From NCBI RefSeq assembly GCF_003073045.1, contig NC_037599.1:25148695-25212694 (forward strand): 64,000 bases of DNA, read 5' to 3'. Positions 1-63,000 of the stretch are shown piece after piece (the first letter of the stretch is position 1; every line of letters starts with the position of its first letter). The translations under genes and the position numbers were made by a program. Origin of the DNA: Pomacea canaliculata (taxonomy: Eukaryota > Mollusca > Gastropoda > Architaenioglossa > Ampullariidae). Under the pieces are notes generated by a model that worked only from the letters and a program-made list of their open reading frames with translations, did not search any database and was not told the origin of the DNA.

Positions 1-470
1 CTCGTATAGAAATTACAGTAGTTTTAACTCTTGTGTTTTCTCAAAACCTGTTTTTCTGTAAAGTCCAAGTACGATGTGTGCGACGAAGGGTGTAGCACAG
101 TCCCTGCAGAGCAGTGCATTCGGAAATAACATTGTTCTGAAATTAAGAAACTAAATCCAAGTCGTACTGAGAAATTCTTTTTGAAACAGTATTTGAGAGT
201 ATTAAATTTAATTAATTTTGTGTTCTCTGCTCTGTGAAAACGACATTAAGGGACACGTGTAACACCCTTTAGTCGAATACTTTTCCTGCATTCATATACA
301 AATGAGATAAAACATTGAGAACCTTAACACCATTAAGGTGACTGAAGATAAAGTCTGCAAATCCCACTTTGAGGTGGAGTTGTTAAGTAGGAATGCTAAT
401 TATAAGAATGTTGTAGCAATGAGGAGACAGTGGGTGTACGGGCTCTAATCTTGACATGACTGTCTGACAG
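1..470. other. intron or upstream sequence of the receptor gene
   Basis: No exon is supported here. It precedes the first placed exon of the receptor gene, whose acceptor AG lies at 469-470 after a short pyrimidine-rich stretch. A cysteine-containing open stretch near 60-130 has no convincing donor and is not annotated. Confidence 0.5.
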
Positions 471-3360
471 CTGACGAGGACAACACGCAAGACTCCAACA
501 AACAAAGCGACACAGCTGTCATCGCTGGCGCAGCTGTAGCTGGAGCTGCCGTTGTTGGTCTGTCGCATCTTCTTCACTGTGAGTCTTGGTTTCTTAAGCT
601 TCCTCCCATCTTTGACTTCTTGTTTTCTTTTTCTGTCAGAAGAACTGTGGCTGTTTACTTTTTTTGTTTACAACCCTTTCGTCTTGTTGCATGAACACGG
701 TATCCAGTTTACAAGTTTAAAAATAAATCGAGCTGAAAAAATGAAATCAAGTAGTGTAATATTTTTCTTAAAGTTTAAATATGTGAAATTAAAAGGAATT
801 GACTTTGCCTACTTTTTTTCTCTCTGAAAGGCTTTTTTGGAAGAAACGCAAACGACAGCGACTGTTGGCTGAGCAAGAAAAACATCGACATGGTGAGTTT
901 TTATCAGAGAGAAACAGAAGAAAGCAGATGCAAAAAGCACAGATATAAGTATATAATTACTGATGTAGTTAGGAAACAAAAAGGAAGTACTAAGAATGCA
1001 CATGTAAGTGTGCTAACGATCCTCATCATACTCATTGTCTGGGGACTCCATTCCCTCAGTTTAAAGGTCATTGGTTTACTTAACTTGCTGTCAAGTGTCA
1101 ACACCCACTGTTAACAGATTATTTGTGGTAAAATAGTTGCCCACAGCAGAGAAGAGGAAAGCTAGAAGCAGTTGTGTACATAATGATGGTGTCACAGTGT
1201 CGCATGTTGTTACCTGTTGCAGAAGAAGGATCGTTCAGACCACTCCATGATCCAGACGACGAGGAAACGTATGTGGAGATCCCGGATGTTGGCGACCAAC
1301 CAGGTAAGAATGGGACTTGGCGGAATTTGAGTTGGTATCCTCTCTTTGTCATCAGTCATCCCTCTGTTTTCATGATCATCTATCAGTTCCATGTGTGCGT
1401 ATCAATACCAACTCTCCGCTCCTTTGAGACAAACTTTTTTCTGTCCATAAAGCTAGAAGTGTTCTGTGTTCAGCATGTGTTGTGCATTCATTGTTCTCTT
1501 GCCCGTGTCATGTGTCATGTGTCATCACTCGGTGCATTCTGTTGTCGGAAGCAGCACCTGGAGATGAGTATGGCTACTCGGAGATCCAGGACGGGACAGA
1601 CAAGGGCCGGCGACATCAACCTCCTCTACCTAAGCGAGGTGAGTACAGGCGGCACAGAGAGAACTGCATGTGTGCACTCGGGCTGGTATTCGAGAGTGAC
1701 AGAGATTTGCATAGTGAGCCACACCAGACAGTGAGACAGCAAGTGAATTCGTAGTTCAGGTAAGAAATAAACCTCGACCCTATGTTGCAGATGGTCAGCG
1801 CACTGAAAACGGCGAGAACCCTTACGACCAGGCCAACAGTAGTTCAGAGGACGTGCGGCCCGGCCCGTCAAAGAAAGCCACGAAGAAAGTGTAAGGACAT
1901 TGCTTTATGACAAGCCATCGTCTACCATTTACTTATTGTCAATCGGGATGTGCATTATCTGAATAGTCTACAGCACGCCATTATTATTTTTGTTTACACG
2001 ATCATGGACAGCAAACACCACTGCGTAGACCACCTCTTTACTGTAGAGATATAGTTGGTGATGTTTGTTTGCTGCAGGTCCGTGAATCTTAACGGTGCAG
2101 AGATTCCCTATGATGTCTGCAGAGACACGGAACAGCGGCGATCGTCCAGCGAAACAAGTAGTCAAGAAAGTAGGTGGTGTGTGCATGGTGTACGATGTAT
2201 GCGTTGCACTGAGTCCCTTGCTTCTCTGTAACCAACAGGGGTTACCCCTTAAGTTGTGACGGGCTTGGTTCTCAGTAACACTCTCTCCTTCTTCAGGTCC
2301 TGCTTCGTCTTCTCCATCCAGTAAAGGGAATGAATCCGAGAGCTACACATACCCTGGCTCCCAGCACGGCCAAAAAGAAGACTATCTAACACCTGCCCCA
2401 TCCTCGCCGGGAGCGCAGAAGACAGGAAGCAGATCGCTAGCAGCTGCAGTTGTCAAAGGTGCAGACTACCTAACACCTACTTCTGCCGAAAGGCAGGGGC
2501 AGACACAAGTAGTCACCGCTGAGGTCAATCGAGCAGACGACTACCTCACACCTACTTCGGACACGACTGTAGAGGGCGTGAAAGTAGCGACTGATGATGT
2601 CGGACGGGCAGATGACTACCTCACGCCGACTTCAAACACAAGTGTAGAGGGCAAGCAAGCCGCCACAGCAGCAGACTACTATTTAACCCCTACTTCTGGG
2701 GAAACTCGAGACACTGCTGAAGTCGCACCAGCAAACGACTACCTCACGCCAGCTCCTGGAAAAAGCGAGAAAGGCAGCACACCTGGGGTACCTGACGACA
2801 AGCAGGCCCACATTTACACACCACTTCTGCAGCAACCCAAAAACCCACAATTCGTCCTCAGCGAAGAGATGAAAAAAGCGGGCTACCTGACTCCAGTCCA
2901 TATACCGACGACTCCTGACACACAGGAGACAGACAGCACGATCAGTGACAGGAAAAAGGCCGGCTACCTCACGCCGGTTGAAGTGCCTGGGTCACCCGAA
3001 CTCGGTACCAAAGGCCAGGAGAAGCCCGCCCCCAGTCAGGATGTCAAAAAACCACAAGACTATCTCACGCCAGTTTCTTCTTCTTCGCCGTCGTCGTCGT
3101 CGGTGGCGGCTCCAGCAAAGAAGAAAAAGGAGAAGTCCAGCATGATTCCTCTGGCGGAGTTCTGGAGCTCCAAGCGCCTGTCGTCGCAGAGAAAAAGCCC
3201 GCCCTCCTCCGAGGGAGAGACGGAGGCGACCCACACCTACGAGAAGATGGGGAACGTGAAATACACGGAGCCTGGCAACGACCCCGCCTACACTAAGATC
3301 GGGGAGGTGCCCGTGACAGTCTCCACTGACCCCGACCCCAGCTCCTATCAAAACTGCTAG
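471..3360 (+). CDS. transmembrane receptor, C-terminal part, with YxxP-rich cytoplasmic tail (5' partial)
   Basis: Family not recognised; the ectodomain lies off the left edge. Exons in one frame: 471-561, 831-892, 1223-1303, 1555-1638, 1791-1890, 2078-2169 and 2297-3360 (TAG stop). The first encodes a membrane span (AVIAGAAVAGAAVVGL). The second gives a basic stop-transfer stretch (FWKKRKRQR), so the rest is cytoplasmic. The tail carries TYVEIPD, YGYSEIQD, a PPLPKR SH3-type site, ENPYDQ, IPYDV, nine YLTP motifs plus YTYP and YTEP, then TYEKMG, AYTKIG and SYQN. YxxP is the known consensus for Crk/CrkL SH2 domains, as in the p130Cas substrate domain. I infer a tyrosine-kinase substrate that docks Crk-type adaptors. 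The 471 exon ends in a weak donor (GTCGCA). The stronger donor at 580 (GTGAGT) would put the basic segment out of frame. Confidence 0.75.
2461..2790 (+). repeat. coding tandem repeat (YLTP units)
   Basis: Five diverged repeat units lie in the last exon of the receptor gene. They start at about 2461, 2533, 2608, 2671 and 2731, with spacings of 72, 75, 63 and 60 bases, all multiples of three. Each begins with Ala/Asn-Asp, then Tyr-Leu-Thr-Pro-Thr/Ala-Ser/Pro, followed by 13-18 variable polar residues. Four further YLTP motifs (near 2384, 2883, 2964 and 3060) lie outside the regular array. The pattern suggests growth by in-frame duplication of a docking motif. Confidence 0.8.
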
Positions 3361-4824
3361 CTGCAGACAGACCCCAGCACATAGCAAAACTGTTAACTAA
3401 AGGCGTTGTGACAAGACACTGCTAATGGCAGAAGGCGTTGTGAAATGAGGCTAAGGGCAAGGGAGGTTGGTAGAGGAAGCTCATCATTTGAGAAGAGCAA
3501 ACTCCTCATTAGACTAATTAGATTATAATAAGCACACATCTTAAGCTAAATGTTGACTTACCTTAACTGGCAGCAACTGTTTGTTAGAACAAGATTTTGA
3601 ATTATAGACATGTCTACCATCACCCACATGAAGCATAATAAGGGGTTGTTTTTTTATTTATTTTTACTTTTGAATCCCGGAATCAGTGTTCACTCTAATC
3701 AAAATCCCTCTTGTTCATTATCGCATCTGGAGGGAGATCATCATGGTTGTCAGCATAAGTTCATTCAGACATCACGGCAAAAGGTATCTCAGGGATTCAG
3801 CAGCAATCTACTGGCAAATAGCTTGAAGGTTTCAACACTTTGCTCAACACCTATTGTCTCCAAAACATTTTTATTTAGACATCTCAGGAGAGTTAAATGC
3901 CTTTTTGGCTCCATTACTGCTATACTCCACACATTAAGCTTCAGCATTAACTTTTCCTGCTGCCAGTTTAGACTTCTAAAAGATGTGTAGTTTTGCTGAC
4001 CTTCTAGTACTATGAGGCAACTAAAAAATATTATTATTATTGTATTAAAACTTCTGATCAGTGATTTTTATAGCACAGAATAACGTGAGAATGGCTAATT
4101 ATTCTCAGAAAAGAACAGACAAGATGACCTGCTTTGTTTTGTTCCCTAAGAAGCTATCTTCCACAAAACACCAGACTTCCATCTTCCATTTTAGCAAATT
4201 GCAGGATAGCTTTTGACCTTTCTGTAGAAAGCAAGCTGCACCAATGGGAGTATTTACAACTCATTGAAATGTGCATGGTTGTTTCGTCAAGGCCAGACAC
4301 CTCTACAAAATGTTGCCAGTCTATAGCTACCTAGCAATGCTAGCATTGTGTCATGCAATATCTGCTACAAATACCTGCAGAGGCCACCTGTGGCATTAGG
4401 TGACCACCCCGAGCATGCATTCTCCTTCCCTCACATAAATGTCTACATACCATAATGGGCAACAAATTTGTTTGAAGTGAAACCAGTACTATTTATTTGA
4501 TGACAATATGTTGATTACATCAAGAAAGAAATAAAAGAATATTATAAGAAGATATGATTGAAGTTTGTTATGGATGACTGATGGTAAAAGAGAGGGGAGA
4601 AGACATTTGTCAGAGTGATGTAATAAATAACAAAATAAATAACTGAATGTGTATATCCCTGTGTGGAGACCAACTCAATGCGCTGTGCACAAAAGATTAC
4701 AGATGAACTGCCAGTCCACCAAACTACATAGAAACGCTGACAGATGACACCGTGCCAGACAGATGACAGCACGGCAGACATGAATGAATTCTACGGATGT
4801 AAAAGTAGGCGGAACTTTGGTTGA

Positions 4825-4912: not shown

Positions 4913-5358
4913 ATGCAGGGATGCACGCAACAAACATAGAATGTCATATGAGATGACAGATATCTTGCCAGAAGCTGCTCCCAGCGTACACAGTTCATTT
5001 GAAAAAAAAAAAACTTTCCTCACCACAGGTCCAGTCATAGATCGGATCTTATAAGTGGAAGCATTTTGCTACTCACTGGGTTGCCTACTTGAAAAACCAA
5101 AATGAGTTCACAAGCCGTGGGAAGATAAACAGTGCAAATCCAGCGATGTAGTAGTTTCCAGACGGTCAACTGTTTGTCATCCTTCATCACTCGCAAAACC
5201 AAACGTTTTGGTTTTAGTAAAAAAATAATTGTCGAAACATTGCTATAACCTTCAGTGGAAAATGATAAAATGGAAGATACACGTCTACTGCATGAATGCA
5301 CGAGCACCAAATCAATTCAATAATAGTCACAAATGTCAAATGCGGTAGTGTAACATTT

Positions 5359-5506
5359 GTTCACAGATTAACATGAACACTAATTACAGGTCTGTGTTCA
5401 CAGATTAACATGAGCACTAATTACAGGTCTGTGTTCACAGATTAACATGAGCACTAATTACAGGTCTGTGTTTACAGATTAACATGAGCACTAATTACAG
5501 GTCTGT
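5359..5506. repeat. 37-bp tandem repeat, 4 copies
   Basis: Four back-to-back 37-base units start at 5359, 5396, 5433 and 5470. The unit begins GTTCACAGATTAACATGAGC and ends GGTCTGT. Units differ by about one base each, so the array is young. No gene overlaps it. Confidence 0.95.
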
Positions 5507-26600: not shown

Positions 26601-29600
26601 GTTTTTGACTTTGATAATGTTTTTAAAGAAATGTTAAAGACTACAAAAGCTGATAATATTTCCAGAATTCCATGACTAGTTAAAAAAAATTATCACTAAG
26701 CATTTGCATTTAGCCAGTGAAAAGGAGGGCTTCCCTTGATCAGAATTGAAACAGAGTTAGATGTTAGTTTCCTAATGTTCCAGTTGATATTGATGCAGAT
26801 GATGGTGCAGAGTCTGAGGCTAACAAGGAAGAGACAGATGACAATTTAACAGGTTAGTCATAGAGAAGTCTGAACTTTAATGGAATCATGCTGGTAATGT
26901 ATCTTTTAGATGTACTTTTAGTTAACTATCTAGGGGATTTGGCCATTAGTACCACAACATAAATGCTTGGTCAGAATCAGTTGCAGCAACTATTTACAAG
27001 ATTTAAAATATGGTTTGAACTTGGATAAAGCCTCATTCTCCTCCATCTTGCTTGCTGAGATGTAGCCTTAGTTGCTGGCACAGTGTAAAACACTAACAAC
27101 TCATTCCTCTATCTTGCCAATAAGGAAAAACTTAAGAACTTTTTTGTAATAATTAGTTGAAGTAAATATGATACATGCTAAATTGGTGATGACAAATTTT
27201 TAAGAAAAGTTTTTTTTTTTTAAAGCGGTTTTCTTGCAGTGAATCTGCATGACAAGATTTGCACAATGCAGGATCAGAGTAGGTCACGAAGCACAAAATA
27301 AATTTCACGTCATCCATGATTAATACCCAATTTTACTAAATAAAAGTATAAATGGAAATGGAACATTTTTAGGCATTCTCTTTTTATTTACATCAGGAAT
27401 AATCTGTAAGCTGTCATTACTCAAAACATACTTTAACAACTGTTTTCTGTCGGCACAAATTAAACAGCATAAATGCCGTTTTACTTTCAGTGCGGTATTG
27501 ACATAGGGTAATACTTGGTTAGTTTAGTTTAGTCCTTGTTACTCCTCGAGGAGCATAGGACTGCCGTAATGCTAGGTACCGGAACGCAAAATTTTTGAAA
27601 TTGAGTTTTTTTCCTATGTTCTCAAGTACAAGAAATTTTTTTGGAAAAACCATAATAATGTATCTCTTATTCGTTTTTGAGCATTGATGTTTGTGATTTG
27701 GACCACATTTGAAACTCTTGTATACAATGAGTAGTCCCAAAGTACTTTATAAGAGAAGTTACCTACACTGACTTTCTATTCAAGTGACCGAAAAACTAAT
27801 TTGCAAAAAGGCATACTGGAAAAAAAACCACATCAAAATCTGGAAAACTAGTTTTGCTGTTCGTCATTTTGCATCAAGACACCAAATTTAAAAACTCATT
27901 TTCAAGGACCAAACCATTTACTTCAAAGTAATCATTATATAGTATTCTCCTGTACTTTGGTAGTCTAAAATTAAAATAGCTAATTATTTTCTACAAACTT
28001 GGAAGACCTCTTTTATAAAATATGCAGCTTGAAATACTACAAAATCAATCTTCCGGGTGGAAAAGTTTAAGGGTAATAAACTTAAAACTGTAATTTCTGA
28101 TCGACTGTACAGATTTGGTTAAAATTTTAAATGTTGATTTAAAAACAATGATATACTTTTCAATTTATGTTAAAAGTGTAAATTTTACATTAAAAAAATT
28201 ATCACATCCAGAACCTTTATGGGGTATGTGCTTAATGATGGTGTGACACTTGTAAAATGTCCTGTGTAATGATGAAAGTGCTGTTTATTTAAGCAGAAGT
28301 TATTCTTTTAAGAGGGCGATGTACATCTATATGCATTCTAATGTGACTTGGGTAGGTCGTGAAGATATTGTTGACTCTGCCGGTATAAACTTAAACTTCC
28401 CTCCCTTTTATGACATTCTGTTAGTCTCAACCTTTAGAATAGTCTCCTGCATCCAGAGACGCCATACTAGTACAATCTGCATTTTCTGTGCTGGTGTTTG
28501 CTGTCTGCTACATAGTTTCTGGTGTCCAATAGGCAGTGCTGCAAGCTTTGAGCGTGCTTTCTAAAGTCAGGTGGTCACATTGTAACAGCCTGTCTGCTAG
28601 TAGAACAGTATCACCATTTATATCAGTTGTGCACAGTGCATAACAATGTCACTGGTAGTTGTGTCCTCAGAACACAAATTCCTGTCAACAGTTTATTACA
28701 GCTGGCTGTAAAACTGGTTTGATACCCTCATATGTTTATTATAGTAACCAAGAAGGCGAATTTAGTCAGTGTTACTTAAAGCTGGGAAACCTGATGTTTC
28801 GCTATGACATCATTGTTACCAAGAAAGCTTCAGGGAGTTGTTTATAGAAATTTTGAAGAACCAAAACAAAAAAATCCAAGTCACGTTGGTAGTACATTGT
28901 AATGTTTATGGGCAACAGACATCCATAACCTTGTTTTGTATTCTTTCTTGTAGATTGCATTATTAATTTTTTTTCTCCAGTTGCCAAATTTCATTAATTT
29001 TTGTACATCATTGACTGGCACAGTTAAAATGCTTTTATGTTGCCTGTTGTAGAAGATGAGAGGGAGAGTCTTAGAAAACAAGTGTATGATGCCATGGGAG
29101 AAGATGAAGCTAAAAAGACAGAAGAGAAAGAAATGGAAAAGGGGCAAGAGATTAAAAAGGATAAAAATACAGACCAAGATTCTGAAGCTGAAGCAAAGTC
29201 AGAAAATAAACAAGATGCTCAAAATACAGATCAAGATTCTCTTGCTGAAGTGTCAAAGGAAAAGAAGAAAGATACAAATATGGAGACTGAATCTGTGGAG
29301 ACCGATCCAGTTGAAGAGCTGAGCAAAACTAAAGACAAGGAGAATGAAAACAGTAGCAGTGAAACCCAGACATTGTCGGCAAATGGCAACAAGATGTCTG
29401 GTGAATGTGGTCAAACAGAGCAAGGAACAGCTGAGCAGGTTGCTACAGACATGAAACCAGATGAGGCAGAGGTGAGGTCATCCTCCTCAGAGCCCTCCTT
29501 ACAGGATAACAAGCCAGCAGAAACTGACACTGCACAAAATACTGTTGATGACAAAACTTGTGCCAGCACAGACAAAGATAATGTAGAAGATCAGATTGAA

Positions 29601-32600
29601 ACTGCTGGTGGTGACTGCACGCAAAATGTTAAGGACTCAAAAGCAGAAGAAAGAAAAGCCATTAATGATGCAAATAGAGATACCAATGAGGAGGTGGGTT
29701 CCAAGGGGAGACTAAAAACAACCAGCAGAGATCTTAAGGAAGGCAGTAAAGAGGAGCCGGGGGATGCAAAAGATAAGGAAGAAAGCAACAGAAACAGCCA
29801 GCAGATAGAGGAAATGGAGATAGAAGTGAAGAAAGAAGAGTGTCTTGAGAAGGGTAATCACTTTGTTGTCACCAGTTTATTTCAGCTATGTGTTTGGAAA
29901 CCAACCAAAGTAATAAGTACAGCCCTGTTTTTCTGATAGTTAACAGCATGTACTTTATCACATATTGCAATGTTATCTACTTGTTTACTGATATCTTTTA
30001 TTTGTGTGATTTGCTCAGTTAACGTTACATGTTTACACTTGTCACATAGTAGTGTGATCTTGCTAACACATGTTTACAAATATCTCTTGTTTGATCACAC
30101 TAACCCTCAGTTATTCTTTTTTGTTAACCTACCAGACCACTGTACCAATTTTTTTCGGTAATTTCCGGATCTGTTCTTTACTGCTGTGCCTAATTTTTGG
30201 AACTTTGCCTAGTACGGGAAAATGCTCAGGCGCCCAGGTATAGGGGACATGTTCAGGGCCTCAGGTCTGGTAAGGTTAAGTGATCTCATTAACCATCAGT
30301 TGACAGATACTGTCCATGTTTGTGCAGACTGTTTCTCTAATGCTGTTGTTGCCAGATAACCTTTTTTCTAAATCTGCAGATAATCCTTGCTTGATTTATT
30401 TTGCATGGCTCAGGAATATGTTTCCCCATATTCTCACAACATAAGTAAAATTGTAATACATTGTAAATATCCCTTTAGCTTGTGGTAGGTTCTGATGCTA
30501 AGCAGTCACAAGTTTGCTCCTGGTTTTGTGTTGATTAAAATACATTTTGAATATGTACATACCGTTGCAGAGTATTCTCACATGTAGGAATTCATTTTGC
30601 TTTGTTTTGGTTTTTTTTGTTTTTTTTATGCTACAAGTAATCAAGAGCTTGTATGTGTATTTTCCATATAGGTATATCGTAAGAGTAATGGTTATTTTGG
30701 GTTGTTAGCAGTGTTTAGCTACAGTTGGGAAAATTGCAGTTCATTTCACTGTTCCCTTCCTGATGAATGTAAGACCATTGATCCTTACAAGCTAAATTCT
30801 GCCTTGGACACAGATTACAACCAGTGGTACTTTAAAGAAAAAAAAATGTTAGGTCTTGCTTCTTGTCCTTCAGAAAAAAATTTAGAAATTTTACTTACAC
30901 AGCACAGGCACAACTCGCAGGCAGTGAGGAGTACTCTTTTTTCTTTTTCCTTAACCTTTGCCACTACTAGACTACAGACAGTATACATTATTGCCCTTCT
31001 CAGACTGTGTGCTACTCATTAGTTTAATACATATTTTTTGAAGATCTTTAATATTCTTCACTTTGTTTTTCTTTTCATTAGTGTATATGTTTGCATTTTT
31101 GTTGTTGTTGTAATATTAGCTTTTATTTCTAAACCGTAATTTTTCAAAAACTGCTTTGATCACAGCTTTTACACTTTCATACAAGATTGGAGAATATTGC
31201 ATTTTACACAGCTCCCTAACAGCATTAAACTTGTTCCTTAACCTGCGTGGGAATTAGCCATCTGTGGTAATTTTCAAGATCCACAAGAATGTCTACACAG
31301 TTGCTGGCAACACGAGACTGGCCAGCATTCCCATCAGCAATAGACAGCAGACTTTCTAATATGGAGGCCTCTCAGCTAGAGAATACACATCCTTGTATCC
31401 TCTAGACATATTCGGAGGGAAAGGTTAAATGCAAAATTTAGGAAGCATCAGTGGCTTTTTACTTGTTTTTGTGATTACCAAAGGCAGCAAATTAATTGCC
31501 ATTACACGTATGGATGACTTGGTTTGATTCTAAAACTGATGTTTATGGTGCATGCTAATATTCTATTCCATCATTATTCCCCACACAGTCCTACACAATC
31601 AGTTTAGTGGTCTGGTTTTACTCCACATCATTTTGACATTAGCACCTTAAAAGTTTTGTTTTCATGCCTGTAAAACTGAGTGTTTACTTTCATTGCCACA
31701 TTTTCATCAGAACCTGATGGTGGTAACTCGCAGAAGGAGGAAAGAAAGATAATGAGACAACTTGTGAAGACAAAGAAAATGAAGATAAAACCTCAGAAGA
31801 CAAGGAAAACGAGGAGGAGGATGTAGAAGATGATGGGGATGATGAAAATCAAGCAGAAGAGGCTGAAGGTGATGATATAGAGAAGGAGGTATGTAGCACA
31901 GATATTGTGCAAATGTCTGGATTGTTGATGGGCAAATGGGAAATTTTTTTCTTTTGCTTTTGGTATGGAAACCTTTGTATACTTGTGTGTACCTCAGATT
32001 TTCGTGTCTGGTGGATCAATGGGTGCATGGTAAAGAGTGTGTGGTGGTCTTTAGTGATGCCTCATTTGAAAAGGATAAAAGGTTCTTTTTTTTTTTAAGA
32101 TGGCAAACCAGAAACTGCAGTAAGCACAAACTCTGATGCAAGCTATCAGCAGTCTGGACAAGTGGGAATTATAACTTTATATAAACACTTCAAAGTAAAG
32201 GTAAAATAATCTAGCTGATACAAGTCATCAACATTTGACTTGACTTTTGCAGGATCCAGATGATGTGCCCAACCTCCAACTGGCATGGGAGATGCTTGAC
32301 CTGGCTAAGGTCATCTATCTAAAGTATGTGGCAGAAGCTGTTAAAAAAAATTTTTTTTAGGTGTTAAGGTGAGCATTAGATCTTCCAGAGGAGCAAAGAC
32401 AGTTGGTGTAGTGACTGGTGCCATTTCTTTAATTTTTCAGTCATAAATGATATAAAACATCAACAGAAATGATTGACCATGCATCACTATTCTTTGTTTT
32501 GAGAATGCCCTTGCTAATTAAAAGGTATTTTCAATTTGTAACCCAGAGACCCCACTGGTGAAAACCAGTTGAAAGCTGCTCAGGCATATTTGAAACTAGG

Positions 32601-57000: not shown

Positions 57001-60000
57001 TGCCCTTCAAGGCACCTTGGTAGTGGACGCCGCGGTGGTCAGAGAAAGAACTGACTTATGAAAGTTAAAGACTGGACTGGTCATCCTGTACAGGACCTGC
57101 TGACTATCACCCACAGTAAACAAGAATGGTGGGCCCTGTCACCTGCCGCATCTATCCATGTGATGCCCACAACCACAGGTGGCGGTCAAGGGACGACTGA
57201 GGGACTGAGTCTCAATCCCCATGTGAAAAGCATTATGATATGGTTTTTAAGAGCTTTATTCAACATTGGACTAAATGAACTTGAATTTACAGGTGTTAAA
57301 GTCATGGTTCCTAGAGTGAAAGGAGACTAGTTGGTCTCCCTGTCAGTTACAACTCAGTTTTGGTGAATCATAGCAATTCTTAATAGTGAGGTTTTACTTC
57401 GTAGATGTTGGCACATCTGGGGATGATTATAATACCTACCCTTTATCAAACATCAAACCATGCAAATGTATATATATAATCTACCTGTGAATAATGCCAA
57501 TGGCTTTGTAGATGGCCACTCGTCCACTCCCTTCCTTGGAAAATCCATCTCGTTTGTCTTTGAGATACATGTTGCGTTCCGAAAAATTGCAGGCACCAAA
57601 GTCAAAGTGTGCTGAGTTGAGGGCGATAAGCTTAGCATACAGAATGCTCTCTAACTGTAATACAAAATATATTTTAACGTAACAAACTAGAACATAGTTA
57701 ATAAAAATGGCATAAAAACCAAGTAAAACTAATCTGTAATCACAACAATGGTGTCTTTTGGCAAATTAGCTGAAAGACTTTTTCTTGTTTCCCTAGGACT
57801 ATATTATGATGAACCAAAACTTTCATTCCTACCATTACATGTCTCTAATACTATTTTCACTATTATAACATCTGCATTATTTCATACATGCTGATATGTC
57901 TGACATTACTTCGACCATCAGAACAGCTGCATTTATTTCCTATGTGCTGAAATGTCCTCGAAACATCATTGTTTTGAAATTCTTCATTAACTATGCAAAA
58001 TTGATATATAAATAGCTTCAAAGTCAATCTAAAATATAAATTTCTATCAGTCTTCTTCCTTAGACATGAAGAAATGCATCTGAAAATGGGAAGGACAATG
58101 ACCTAACTAAATCAAATCAAACTTTATTGTCTGTCCGAGGAAGTCTAAGACAGAAATTTTTGGTTTGCTCACAAACCCAACCACATATACACAAACATAA
58201 CATGAGCATAACAAACACAATATGAGCACAGCACAACATAATTGCCAGACATACCCATTCAAGACATTCAACACACATGCACACCTACACCTTCTCTCAC
58301 ATGCATGTGAAAACTCCTAAGGAGGATCCCAGGTAGTATAGCAACCCTACGAGTCCCTGTGCCTCTTATTTAGGATGGTGATGGCTGCTGTCTAAACTCG
58401 AATAAAGCCTGCTCATAAACATGTAACCTGATTTTGTTTGGGTTTAGTTAAGTCTCTGTCAGCGGACATTATATTTCCACAACATAGTTTAAATGGCGTC
58501 TACATAGTTTAAATGGCGCCACTTATTTGAATGAGATTTCAAGAAGCATCTGTTCACAGGGTCAGCTGTCTTGCTATGATATAGCCTCCTCCCCCTTTCT
58601 CTGAGTGACAGAGAAAAACAGAGAGAGGGGAGTGAAAGCATAGTTCTAGATCTGTTGCATTCTCTCTCCAGTTATGAGTCTTTGTCTATTTACTTGCATC
58701 CTGTTTGTATGACTATGTCATTTACATATACTGTTACATGCTCAATGCACATACATATATGTGCACACACACACACACACACAAAGACACGCACACAAAC
58801 ATGGGTGGGTGTGTAAACAATAATAGTATTTTCCAACCTGTATATCTTCATTGTCAAAATAATTCCCATAGATGAAGCAGCCTCGTTTTGACGCGTGTCC
58901 GTGCAGATCCATATAGAAGGCAACACCACTGTCATGAGGATGAATTTCAAGTAGTTGAGCATCCGATAAATGAGGCGAGCAGTTTCCTGACAGCCCTTCT
59001 AATGTTACTGGAGATGCTTCTTCATCTTCAGAACCTTCATTTCCAAGCCTTTCTGTTGCTTCTGTATCAGAATCAAAAGAGGCATCATCAGCCAGGGTGT
59101 TACTGCATAAATCTTCTGACATGTTCAGTTCTGACAAATGCAGGCAAAGCTCACTATCCACATGATGCATCTCAGCCTGGCCATTGACCATGCCAGTTGC
59201 TGGCAAGTGAAGCTTGTCAAGGCTGACTACGCTGCTGCTAGATGAGCTCACATGAAAAATCTGATTGTTTTCAAGACCTGCTGGAGGGCAGGAGTCACTG
59301 GCAGACTCATCTGACATGTATAAGTCAGTAAGATTGAGAGGCTCCACCTTTGCTGACTCCTGCTGGGAAAGCAGCTCCAAGCTGGTAGTGCCACCTGCTA
59401 TATTTGCTTCCAGCCACTTTTCAGAATTTGACTGAATGGCAGGCACATGTTTCAAAGAGGCTGACACAAGAGGATGCTGATATGATTTCGTCTTTGTCTC
59501 ATTCTGTCTCCTAGTGGTTTGCTTGTGGCTATCTGAGGACAGAGTGATATCATGCTCACCACTTTGCAAAACATCTTGGTCCCCGCCACTTCTTTCTTGA
59601 GGTGAATTTGGGACACCAGGGCCATCTTTACCAGAACTTTGTTCATCACATGGAAAATTGATATGAATTTTCAAAGGCTCTCCTCCAAGGCGAGGAAGCT
59701 GATTCATAACATGGTGGTATACAAGAAGGCTTTTGGCTGCATAAATAGATGGGTGAAGGATAGGACTAGGGTCCAGGTACATGCGATTCAGGTTCATGCC
59801 TCGCTGGTCTGTTCGATAGTGACCTCGCATGACCCCATCAGGATTTAACATGGGGATCAGCTTGAAAACATACTGCTGTCGAAGCTGCGCTGCTCGGAGG
59901 TCATTTTCACGCAAAATAAAGTCCAGGAAACCATTGAACACAAAGCTTCCTGGTGTCTCGCCTGGGTGAACTCTACTGCTGAGAAGAAATACCTGAAGAT

Positions 60001-63000
60001 TAAAACAAAATCAAGCTATTCACTGGTGGGTGATGCTACTGGACATAAAATTTATAAAGACTGTAAAGGACTATACGTTATACTAGGTATGCTTCAATTA
60101 CCATGGAGGCTTCAAAGAAGGTACTAAGCACACTCCATTGTGGAGCAGAAGGTCAATAATTTAAGGCCTGCTTGGGTCTATGGCTGAAAACTTCCCCCCA
60201 CCACTGTCCACCCATCAGATTTCCAAAAGAAATGGGTACCTGCTTTATTAGGGAAGATAAAGGAAAGGAAGGAAAGTGTTGGGCTCCACCTGCTGTGTCA
60301 ACACACACTGCACCACTGTCAGCCATTGTCTTTATGGCCATTAAGTTATGAGACAAGACATCCCTGACCATTATTTTCAGCTAGCAGCTGTGATTGGTGG
60401 AGGATAATTCATGCAGCAAACTAAACCAGCAATAACCTGACAGTAGTGGCTTTCCTACTGTCTTCCCCGCCCCCATAAAAACTTTATTATTGATACAGTC
60501 CTGTCTTTGAGATGTCATTTTTGCCAATGCATAAGGTGTGTCTACTTTTTCAGAGGCCCACCAGAAAGAAAATAGATTTAAGAAACTTCAGTTATTAATT
60601 TAAAAAAAACAATACACCAACTGCAACTGAGCTCACCCTTTTGTCCTTGAATTTGTAGCATCGTGGAGTGTCTTGATCTGGAAACAGGTGCTTGTCAAAT
60701 CGAGTTTCTCGACAGAATGTATTACCATGACAGGATGTGATAGTCAATAAATCAACACGTAGCTTGTCCAGAGAGTAGCACAGTAGTTCTCGATGGTAGT
60801 AAAGTCTTTCTGGTGGGCTGGAAAAAATTTGAAGTTATGATCATCACTGTCACTGACATGCATTATAAACATACATATATATATATATGACAATGCTGTT
60901 ATTGGTACTATTTATGACCTTTGTGACTGTATATATATATATGACAATGCTGTTATCAGTACTATTAATGAGACCTATCACTCTGAAAGTACTGGTAAAT
61001 ATGCTGCTGTCGAGACTGGTGAATAGTACATGAACAAGAATCCTTGGCTGCATTATTATTACAGCATGCCATTAACTCAAATACTACTCTGCTGACCATA
61101 TTTGTATGATCATTATCTCTTGGCTTAACTTCATACTGAATCTGTAATCCACTTACAGGTCATTAAAGTCAAACAAGTAATTAAAGTCAACAATTCCATC
61201 CTGCACAGTGCAGTGCATGGGTCAACCATGGACATGTAACTAATGAGGCCCACAGGCCCCAGAGTGCCTAATACAGGGACACAACAGCTGGAGCCCATAA
61301 GACCCGTATTGGTGACAGGCACTAATCATTGTGCCACCAGACTGCCCCTATAACAACTGAGGCCCTTAGTACACACATTGACAAGCACATAACAACTAGA
61401 GCCTACAGGGTCTTCACAAACATATCTATACATAATGGTAAACAGGACAGGTGCCAGGCTTCACCACCCTGTAATTCTATGCAGTGACATTAAAACTACC
61501 CTAGTATATCCTGTTCTACTGCAGTACCTGACATAAAATCCACCCAAAGACATTACACTTTCTCTGGAATGTCCTGAACTGTGCAGGGATTTATATAAAT
61601 TCTAGAAGTAGCAAATTCTCCTGGCATGTTCTGAACTCTGGCATTACTAGTTCAAGGTGCTAATGGCGCTGCCACAGCATGCCACTATGAGACTGAGCAG
61701 CTCAACAGTGCAAGTCAAAACCTCATCAAAAACTAAAGCCAAAGCACTTATTCATGTAGGAAAGTCACCACCACCTACCATAGAACTAAATTAAAGACTT
61801 GTCAGGGTGTATCAGGTCACCCACCTGCCTGGGGACATGTGGAGACAGTGTTCAAATCTCTTGTCCAGGATCTGTAGCTGCTCCTGTGACTCTGTGTATG
61901 ACCATGGGTAGCTGAAGGCAAAGTAACATGTCCCTCCCTTGAGGTCGGGGAATCGGTAGGTGAAGGTCAGAATGAACTGGTTGTCTATTACCTAAACGGA
62001 ATGTTAGTGCCAGCAGATCGTGAGCATTTTACACAGAAAGAGGGAGACCAAATGGCCATTTAAACTATGTAAAGCTGCAACGGCGATAACTGTGCAAGCC
62101 ACCGAAAGAGACAAAAAACAACTCATCATAAACTAGTGAGTGTGTGTGTTTTCTTGGCTAGCAGTCTCATTCAGTTCCTAAACAGAGACAGTTACATCAT
62201 AGATTGTTGAATCTTCTATTCATCATCTGTCACTAAACAGTAACTTTCTCTGTAAAATTAATAAAACTAATCTTGTGCTTACCTCAAATGTTGGTTTGTC
62301 TCGTATGCGCTCCCACTTGGGTCGACTAGGAAGAAGGCGCGTTAAAGGAGTGTAACCTTGACCGTAGAGCTTGCCCTGTCGATTCATATTCATGATGTTG
62401 AACTTAATCAACCGATTGGGCACCCACCCACGAACTCCAAAGTAGAACCAGGATCTACAAACAGAGGAAGGTTTCTTACTGTGTCATCTGGCATGCTAAT
62501 GGTGTAGGTGTAAGGCCTCACTGGAAACAAACTACAGGTCAAAGTTTATTAATGAGGCAAGAGTCATTTCTACCTGTTACTGTTTTCTGCAGGGGATCCA
62601 GCACAGTCAGGTTTTGTCCACAGATTAAACTCTGCATCATGTCTTAGATCTCCAAGGTAGTAATTAACATCTGTCACAAACAAATCAGGAGGGAAACTGA
62701 TATAGACATGTAGTTACATGAACATAGAGATACGTCTAATTATTTGTACACACAATGTGGTTGTACTGGCTACCTGGATCTGTTTTAACTATCTCCAGTC
62801 CACACACACTACAAAAGTATGCTACACATTCTCATATACAGCCATACCATATTTGCAGAGATCAGCAACCATAGTTTCTGTGATTTTAACAGTTGCAATG
62901 TTGTTGTGGGCATGAAAATAAGGTGGAAATCGCTACAGATATCAAATGACTTCTTCCTTAACTCATTGGCTATGTGACCTTCACATTTATGTCTCTTCTC

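Follow-up and report, generated by a model that had tools for sequence, protein, structure and literature searches.

Multiple YxxP motifs in the tail of a membrane protein have been described for DCBLD1/2 (ESDN), with seven cytoplasmic motifs in DCBLD2 and eight in DCBLD1, and the SH2 domain of CRKL is bound after SFK or Abl activity (PMC6029619). Five YxxP transmembrane proteins have been predicted in choanoflagellates, namely PTSG_05573, PTSG_12435, PTSG_12436, A9VAL3, and A9V449; they combine a predicted span with several cytosolic YxxP motifs (ten in PTSG_05573), while SH2-like domains are found in three of the five and known extracellular domains in several (PMC5043372). The peptides of PTSG_05573 that were assayed are of the pYDVP type, and two of them bound the choanoflagellate Crk SH2 domain (PMC5043372). 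A dense array of 15 YxxP motifs is present in p130Cas/BCAR1 (PMC2689226), which is a soluble protein with SH3, serine-rich, and C-terminal domains. In the membrane receptor EGFR, pY992 is a YxxP site that has been called a canonical CRK motif and that correlates with CRKL binding (R2 = 0.88) (PMC4841779). On YxxP transmembrane proteins in molluscs, no report was found in the literature searched.

The gene described here lies at the beginning of a stretch of 64,000 nucleotides of the snail Pomacea canaliculata (C10:25148695-25212694; genome of 440,159,624 bases in 24 contigs). This stretch is called the window in the following, and negative positions lie upstream of it. Judged from its sequence, and with a probability of roughly 0.6, the product would be a single-pass, membrane-anchored docking scaffold, whose YLTP motifs, upon phosphorylation by Src/Abl-type kinases, would load Vav and/or Crk for Rac-type actin control. 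It would give a mollusc example of the membrane-anchored YxxP scaffolds that are known in vertebrates and choanoflagellates. A preliminary description of the locus had considered this an unusual signaling design. That view has to be given up, since DCBLD1/2 (PMC6029619) and the choanoflagellate transmembrane proteins (PMC5043372) precede it, and that a membrane protein can recruit Crk in the absence of Cas is, as a general idea, already in the literature. Worth testing is the contrast between the uniform YLTP, with its Leu at +1, and the YDxP motifs of the animal's own Cas protein.

The YLTP array and the exons of the tail

The exons starting at 831, 1223, 1555, 1791, 2078, and 2297 join via GT-AG sites in one frame, and the joined tail (831-3360) comprises 493 residues, including 22 Tyr and two Cys. 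The features of the gene are the following.

471-578, + strand: probable exon of the membrane span (DEDNTQDSNKQSDTAVIAGAAVAGAAVVGLSHLLH), entered and left in phase 1 (hydropathy, position)
831-892, + strand: juxtamembrane basic exon LFWKKRKRQRLLAEQEKHRH (GT-AG sites, in phase with exon 1223)
1223-1303, + strand: tail exon with YVEI (splice sites, phase)
1555-1638, + strand: tail exon with YSEI and with PPLPKR, an SH3-type site of class II (splice sites, phase); its start is uncertain by 3 nt due to a double CAG acceptor
1791-1890, + strand: tail exon with NPYD (splice sites, phase)
2078-2169, + strand: tail exon with IPYDV (splice sites, phase)
2297-3360, + strand: last coding exon with 11 YxxP motifs, YEKM, YTKI, YQNC, and the TAG stop (open frame, splice site)
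2344-2355, + strand: YTYP (motif position)
2383-3072, + strand: array of nine YLTP motifs, spaced by 20-48 residues (motif count), the copies starting at 2383, 2467, 2542, 2617, 2680, 2740, 2884, 2965, and 3061 (motif positions)
3238-3249, + strand: YEKM, of the pYxxM type (PI3K p85 class) (motif position)
3262-3273, + strand: YTEP (motif position)
3346-3357, + strand: C-terminal YQNC, of the pYxN type (Grb2 class) (motif position)

Along the tail, the motifs follow each other in the order YVEI, YSEI, PPLPKR, NPYD, IPYDV, YLTP array, YEKM, YTEP, YTKI, and YQNC. Asn at +2, as in the last of these, is preferred by Grb2 (PMC3514216). The last exon is part of an open frame from 2260 to 3360; it begins with the acceptor cttcag followed by GT at 2297 and runs to the TAG stop at 3360. 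Both the 11 YxxP motifs reported before (nine YLTP plus YTYP and YTEP) and the YVEI, YSEI, NPYD, IPYDV, and PPLPKR motifs of the earlier tail exons are borne out, the former by the open frame and the motif count, the latter in compatible frame; YEKM, YTKI, and the C-terminal YQNC are additions to that list.

The array of docking motifs is real and uniform to an unusual degree. With 17 Tyr and 38 Pro among the 353 residues encoded by the last exon, 11 YxxP motifs were reached in none of 100,000 shuffles (mean 1.8, maximum 8), and in the same shuffles YLTP occurred with a mean of 0.009 and a maximum of two copies, versus nine observed. The tyrosine of the 11 YxxP motifs is followed by Leu in nine cases and by Thr in two, and the Leu at +1 of the YLTP copies is spelled by four different codons. 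Within YLTP, 96 of 144 codon pairs differ between the nine copies and every difference is synonymous, whereby the lack of amino acid changes inside the motif is given by construction, the copies having been chosen by their letters. Among the differing codon pairs of the flanks, 229 of 247 change the amino acid at positions -8 to -1 and 281 of 304 do so at positions +4 to +12. The synonymous turnover within YLTP shows that the copies did not arise by recent duplication of the DNA; the DNA of the array is partly tandem (a 75-nt unit in 1.9 copies, and also five-copy repeat families). Asp precedes Tyr in six of the nine copies, and acidic residues near Tyr are reported as favored by many tyrosine kinases (PMC3514216).

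A paralogue of the last exon was not detected in the genome at E up to 0.001, the one match being the exon itself. When the early part of the tail was searched against the genome at E up to 10, eight matches were obtained, six of which are exons of the same gene; the other two are weak (C3, E 0.52; C5, E 3.65). In positions 1-3362 of the window, Pfam (three frames, E up to 5) recognized no family and hence neither a kinase nor an adaptor domain.

Probable membrane anchoring and the upstream DNA

According to the preliminary description, the array is located directly downstream of a membrane span. This holds in so far as a hydrophobic exon (471-578; best 19-residue mean Kyte-Doolittle value, 2.0) is followed, after an intron of 252 nt, by the basic, stop-transfer-like LFWKKRKRQR encoded in 831-892, but in the assembly the two exons meet one base out of frame, with donor 578 leaving phase 1 and acceptor 831 needing phase 2. 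All four phase-2 donors within 520-690 score -1.0 or less, versus 6.3 for donor 578. The published P. canaliculata assembly was built from long reads with bases corrected by short reads (PMC6129957), for which reason the mismatch would most likely be a matter of the assembly or of the allele. By codon-plus-splice scoring, exon 471-578 reaches 23.3, while the best scores of three control stretches are 27.5, 28.2, and 28.5, the controls being opposite-strand and downstream DNA that is possibly coding in part. Since the score of the exon is within the range of the controls, its designation as span exon is based on hydropathy and position. The intron that follows the span exon has a strong acceptor at 640. 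Splicing from 578 to 640 would halt translation just past the span, and a tailless form of the protein is possible.

The frame mismatch, the control-range score of the span exon, and an acceptor at 640 whose use would terminate translation right after the span could also be explained if the tail were a soluble scaffold and the hydrophobic exon part of another product. Such an arrangement is quite unlikely, however, considering that a basic, stop-transfer-like stretch opens the first tail exon, that the hydrophobic exon is located only one 252-nt intron upstream of it, and that a residual one-base error is possible in a long-read assembly (PMC6129957). The membrane span probably anchors the tail.

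The nearest gene upstream on the same strand is HSDL2-like, with short-chain dehydrogenase and SCP2 domains (about -26.4 to -21.2 kb, the SCP2 match ending near -21.2 kb); beyond it, at about -29.9 to -28.1 kb on the - strand, there are open frames that are thiolase/SCPx-like by eye. Pfam (three frames, 10-kb blocks) identified no ectodomain in the about 21 kb that separate the span exon from this HSDL2-like gene, the sole match being a sub-threshold one to a plant family (E 0.41). The step as such works, since for the HSDL2-like gene it recovered the expected families (dehydrogenase and SCP2-type) at the limit of E 1, though on genomic frames Pfam could miss domains divided among short exons. 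A filter for cysteine-rich exons applied to 60 kb upstream yielded 70 candidates, 54 of them within the stretch from the HSDL2-like gene to the span exon, and no EGF, Ig, or LDL-receptor module was seen among these 70 by eye. Thirty-eight of the 70 are overlapping versions of one 9-residue repeat at about -18.9 to -18.4 kb. This repeat has one Cys per unit (HNGNCHLKV type) and, by eye, is probably a 27-nt minisatellite.

Codon-plus-splice scoring of the DNA between -20.5 kb and the span exon gave a best value of 22.4, which is under the best controls (27.5, 28.2, and 28.5), and a signal-peptide scan for phase-1 first exons returned eight candidates, none of which is convincing. A signal-peptide-like open frame at -9201 was set aside by eye as putative retroelement debris. 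The region from -8388 to -5983 is occupied by a 40-nt minisatellite (60 copies, 91% matches); three frames of the 10-kb upstream block holding it had no hits in the PDB with phmmer at E 0.1. Overall, neither a start nor a signal peptide nor an ectodomain was identified upstream by Pfam, exon scoring, and signal-peptide scan. The idea of a ligand-gated receptor, which was to be checked on the upstream exons, consequently finds no backing in the about 21 kb of upstream DNA, in which no Pfam ectodomain, by eye no known module, and no convincing signal exon were found. An adaptor with a short extracellular part is possible, as is an ectodomain of an unfamiliar type that is encoded in short exons.

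Comparison with known YxxP proteins

By the Pfam domains sought, the snail gene does not qualify as a Cas, a DCBLD, or a receptor kinase gene. It shares with Cas proteins a YxxP-rich substrate domain (11 motifs) and the density of the array, whereas the SH3, serine-rich, and C-terminal domains of p130Cas/BCAR1 are opposed to zero Pfam families in window positions 1-3362. Multiple YxxP motifs are present in the cytoplasmic tails of DCBLD1/2 (PMC6029619) and in the snail tail, for which the probable span joins one base off frame in the assembly. The CUB, LCCL, and FV/FVIII domains, which constitute the ectodomain of DCBLD1/2, are not found in the about 21 kb upstream of the snail tail, and unlike DCBLD1/2 the snail array consists of a single four-residue motif repeated nine times. 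A genome-wide search for LCCL gave one match, on C2, with trypsin domains from about 4.6 kb downstream; within 30 kb around this match, no open frame of at least 25 residues with at least two YxxP motifs is present on its strand. As the lone LCCL match is associated with trypsin domains and not with a YxxP-rich frame, no DCBLD gene is seen by this LCCL-based search.

A kinase domain is absent from the tail (Pfam, window 1-3362), which sets the gene apart from receptor tyrosine kinases. The Y992 site of EGFR, a kinase receptor, reads YLIP and is solitary, as opposed to the array of the snail tail. Transmembrane adaptors of the LAT/PAG type have a juxtamembrane CxxC palmitoylation site, for which there is no Cys in exon 831-892 (tail frame). 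They also have a very short ectodomain; here, neither an ectodomain domain nor a start or signal exon turned up. The choanoflagellate proteins are akin to the snail tail in their predicted span and several cytosolic YxxP motifs, and differ from it by the pYDVP peptides of PTSG_05573, as compared to YLTP, and by the additional SH2-like and extracellular domains (PMC5043372). As far as the sequence can say, the snail gene would work like DCBLD1/2 and the choanoflagellate proteins; membership in either group is not implied.

Candidate SH2 readers and proposed function

For YLTP as an SH2 phosphotyrosine site, no report was found in the literature searched. The consensus motifs listed in Table 3 of PMC3514216 are pY-D-[V/L]-P for the CRK, pY-D-phi-P for the CRKL, pY-[V/E/L]-x-P for the VAV1, and [pY][phi][X][D/phi] for the RASA1_N SH2 domain. 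To the letter, YLTP matches the row of VAV1, and at +3 only those of CRK and CRKL. In the same source, Pro or Leu at +3 is named as a requirement of the Crk SH2 domain, with other residues at +1 not being excluded in the passage concerned, and two YELP peptides are given with weak binding to Crk (44 and 23.7 uM, Table 2); its text states 380 nM for Crk with one YELP peptide, which conflicts with that table (PMC3514216).

The genome provides the loci needed for comparison. A Cas gene, separate from the YLTP gene, is located at C12:21.13 Mb; at E up to 0.001, PF08824 and PF12026 each match the genome once, with about 1 kb between the two matches on C12, and the former family (Serine_rich) also gave a match under its cut-off in one control genome out of 14. 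At the Cas locus, Asp or Glu occupies +1 in 10 of 12 counted YxxP motifs (exceptions, YKQP and YFPP), the count being taken from two overlapping open frames with unmodelled exon borders and leaving out a third one (21126596, two YxxP) of uncertain exon status. In the tail of the YLTP gene the same applies to none of 11; the Fisher p value for this contrast, 7e-5, is too small, since repeated copies are not independent. Within 1.8 kb, a Crk-like locus (C3:8459204-8460949) has, in order, two pieces of SH2 and one of SH3, with an internal stop codon in two of these three matches. The best genome match to the human VAV1 SH2 domain is an SH2 exon at C1:3917831 (37% identity over 80 residues, E 7e-8).

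A Crk-specific array, in which YLTP would recruit many Crk molecules and do the work of Cas at the membrane, is possible but somewhat doubtful. The requirement for Pro or Leu at +3 is satisfied by all 11 sites (PMC3514216), a Crk-like locus exists in the snail genome, and Crk-type binding is on record for the CRKL SH2 domain with YxxP of DCBLD1/2 (PMC6029619), and for the choanoflagellate crka1 SH2 domain with YxxP peptides (PMC5043372); CRKL binding is also tracked by EGFR pY992 (PMC4841779). Against this stand the Asp at +1 in both the CRK and the CRKL row, the weak YELP peptides of Table 2, albeit with 380 nM in the text (PMC3514216), and the acidic +1 residues of the snail Cas motifs (10/12, versus 0/11 here). 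The preliminary description had named Crk as the reader; the Crk-like locus and Pro at +3 in 11 of 11 sites agree with this, Leu or Thr in place of Asp at +1 does not, and Crk would be one option only, not the obvious one.

A docking array for Vav (or the RasGAP N-SH2), which would be distinct from the snail's Cas/Crk system, is put forward tentatively. It conforms to the VAV1 and RASA1_N rows of Table 3 (PMC3514216), to the Leu at +1 that is kept in nine of nine YLTP copies via four different codons, and to the SH2 exon at C1:3917831 as best genome match, which is a candidate Vav exon by its SH2 match. YTYP and YTEP fall outside the VAV1 row, however, and the domains behind the SH2 table are human, with a limited set of peptides (PMC3514216). 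That the membrane array would be read by a Vav-type and not a Crk-type SH2 domain, so that two separate YxxP systems existed in one animal, is rather unlikely; if true, a soluble Cas with YDxP would serve Crk and a membrane scaffold with YLTP a direct Rac activator. The two YxxP arrays of this genome, which differ almost completely at +1, offer a natural test of SH2-reader assignment. Very unlikely is a conserved unit L-T-P as site of a proline-directed Ser/Thr kinase with Tyr being incidental. TP is as invariant as Y, the invariance of which is no evidence against such a site in copies picked by YLTP, and Ser, Thr, and Pro are abundant in the tail (57, 45, and 50 of 493 residues), but Asp before Tyr in six of nine copies and the further tyrosine motifs populating the same tail speak for the tyrosine.

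The preferred reading, i.e., a docking scaffold for Vav and/or Crk, would proceed from a single-pass protein sitting in the membrane with a tail devoid of enzyme domains. Upon clustering of the scaffold, Src- or Abl-type kinases would phosphorylate the YLTP tyrosines, and the nine near-identical sites would load many copies of one SH2 class reading Pro at +3, namely Vav, Crk, or both. Vav, which is a Rac activator, would act directly, and Crk through DOCK180, on Rac-type actin control. DOCK180 is bound by the SH3n domain of Crk (PMC5043372). Src-family kinase, PI3K, Grb2, and SH3 partners would be added via YVEI/YSEI, YEKM, YQN, and PPLPKR, respectively. What we infer is that exon 471-578 anchors the protein, that the tail is phosphorylated and bound by SH2 domains, and that the output is Rac. 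Directly seen are the YLTP array and its number of motifs far above chance, the tail exons joined in frame, a hydrophobic exon in the right place, the Cas gene, and the SH2 loci. From the preliminary description, the dense YxxP array and the probable anchor are retained, along with a Crk-like locus and a Cas gene in the genome, while its novelty and the ligand-gated receptor are not.

Downstream of the gene, a 37-nt tandem repeat is present in four copies with 98% matches (window 5358-5506). Further along the window, an acidic, Lys/Glu-rich open frame without a Pfam match is found on the + strand (29028-29870), and an open frame on the - strand (58745-60010) matches zinc carboxypeptidase (Peptidase_M14, E 9e-9).
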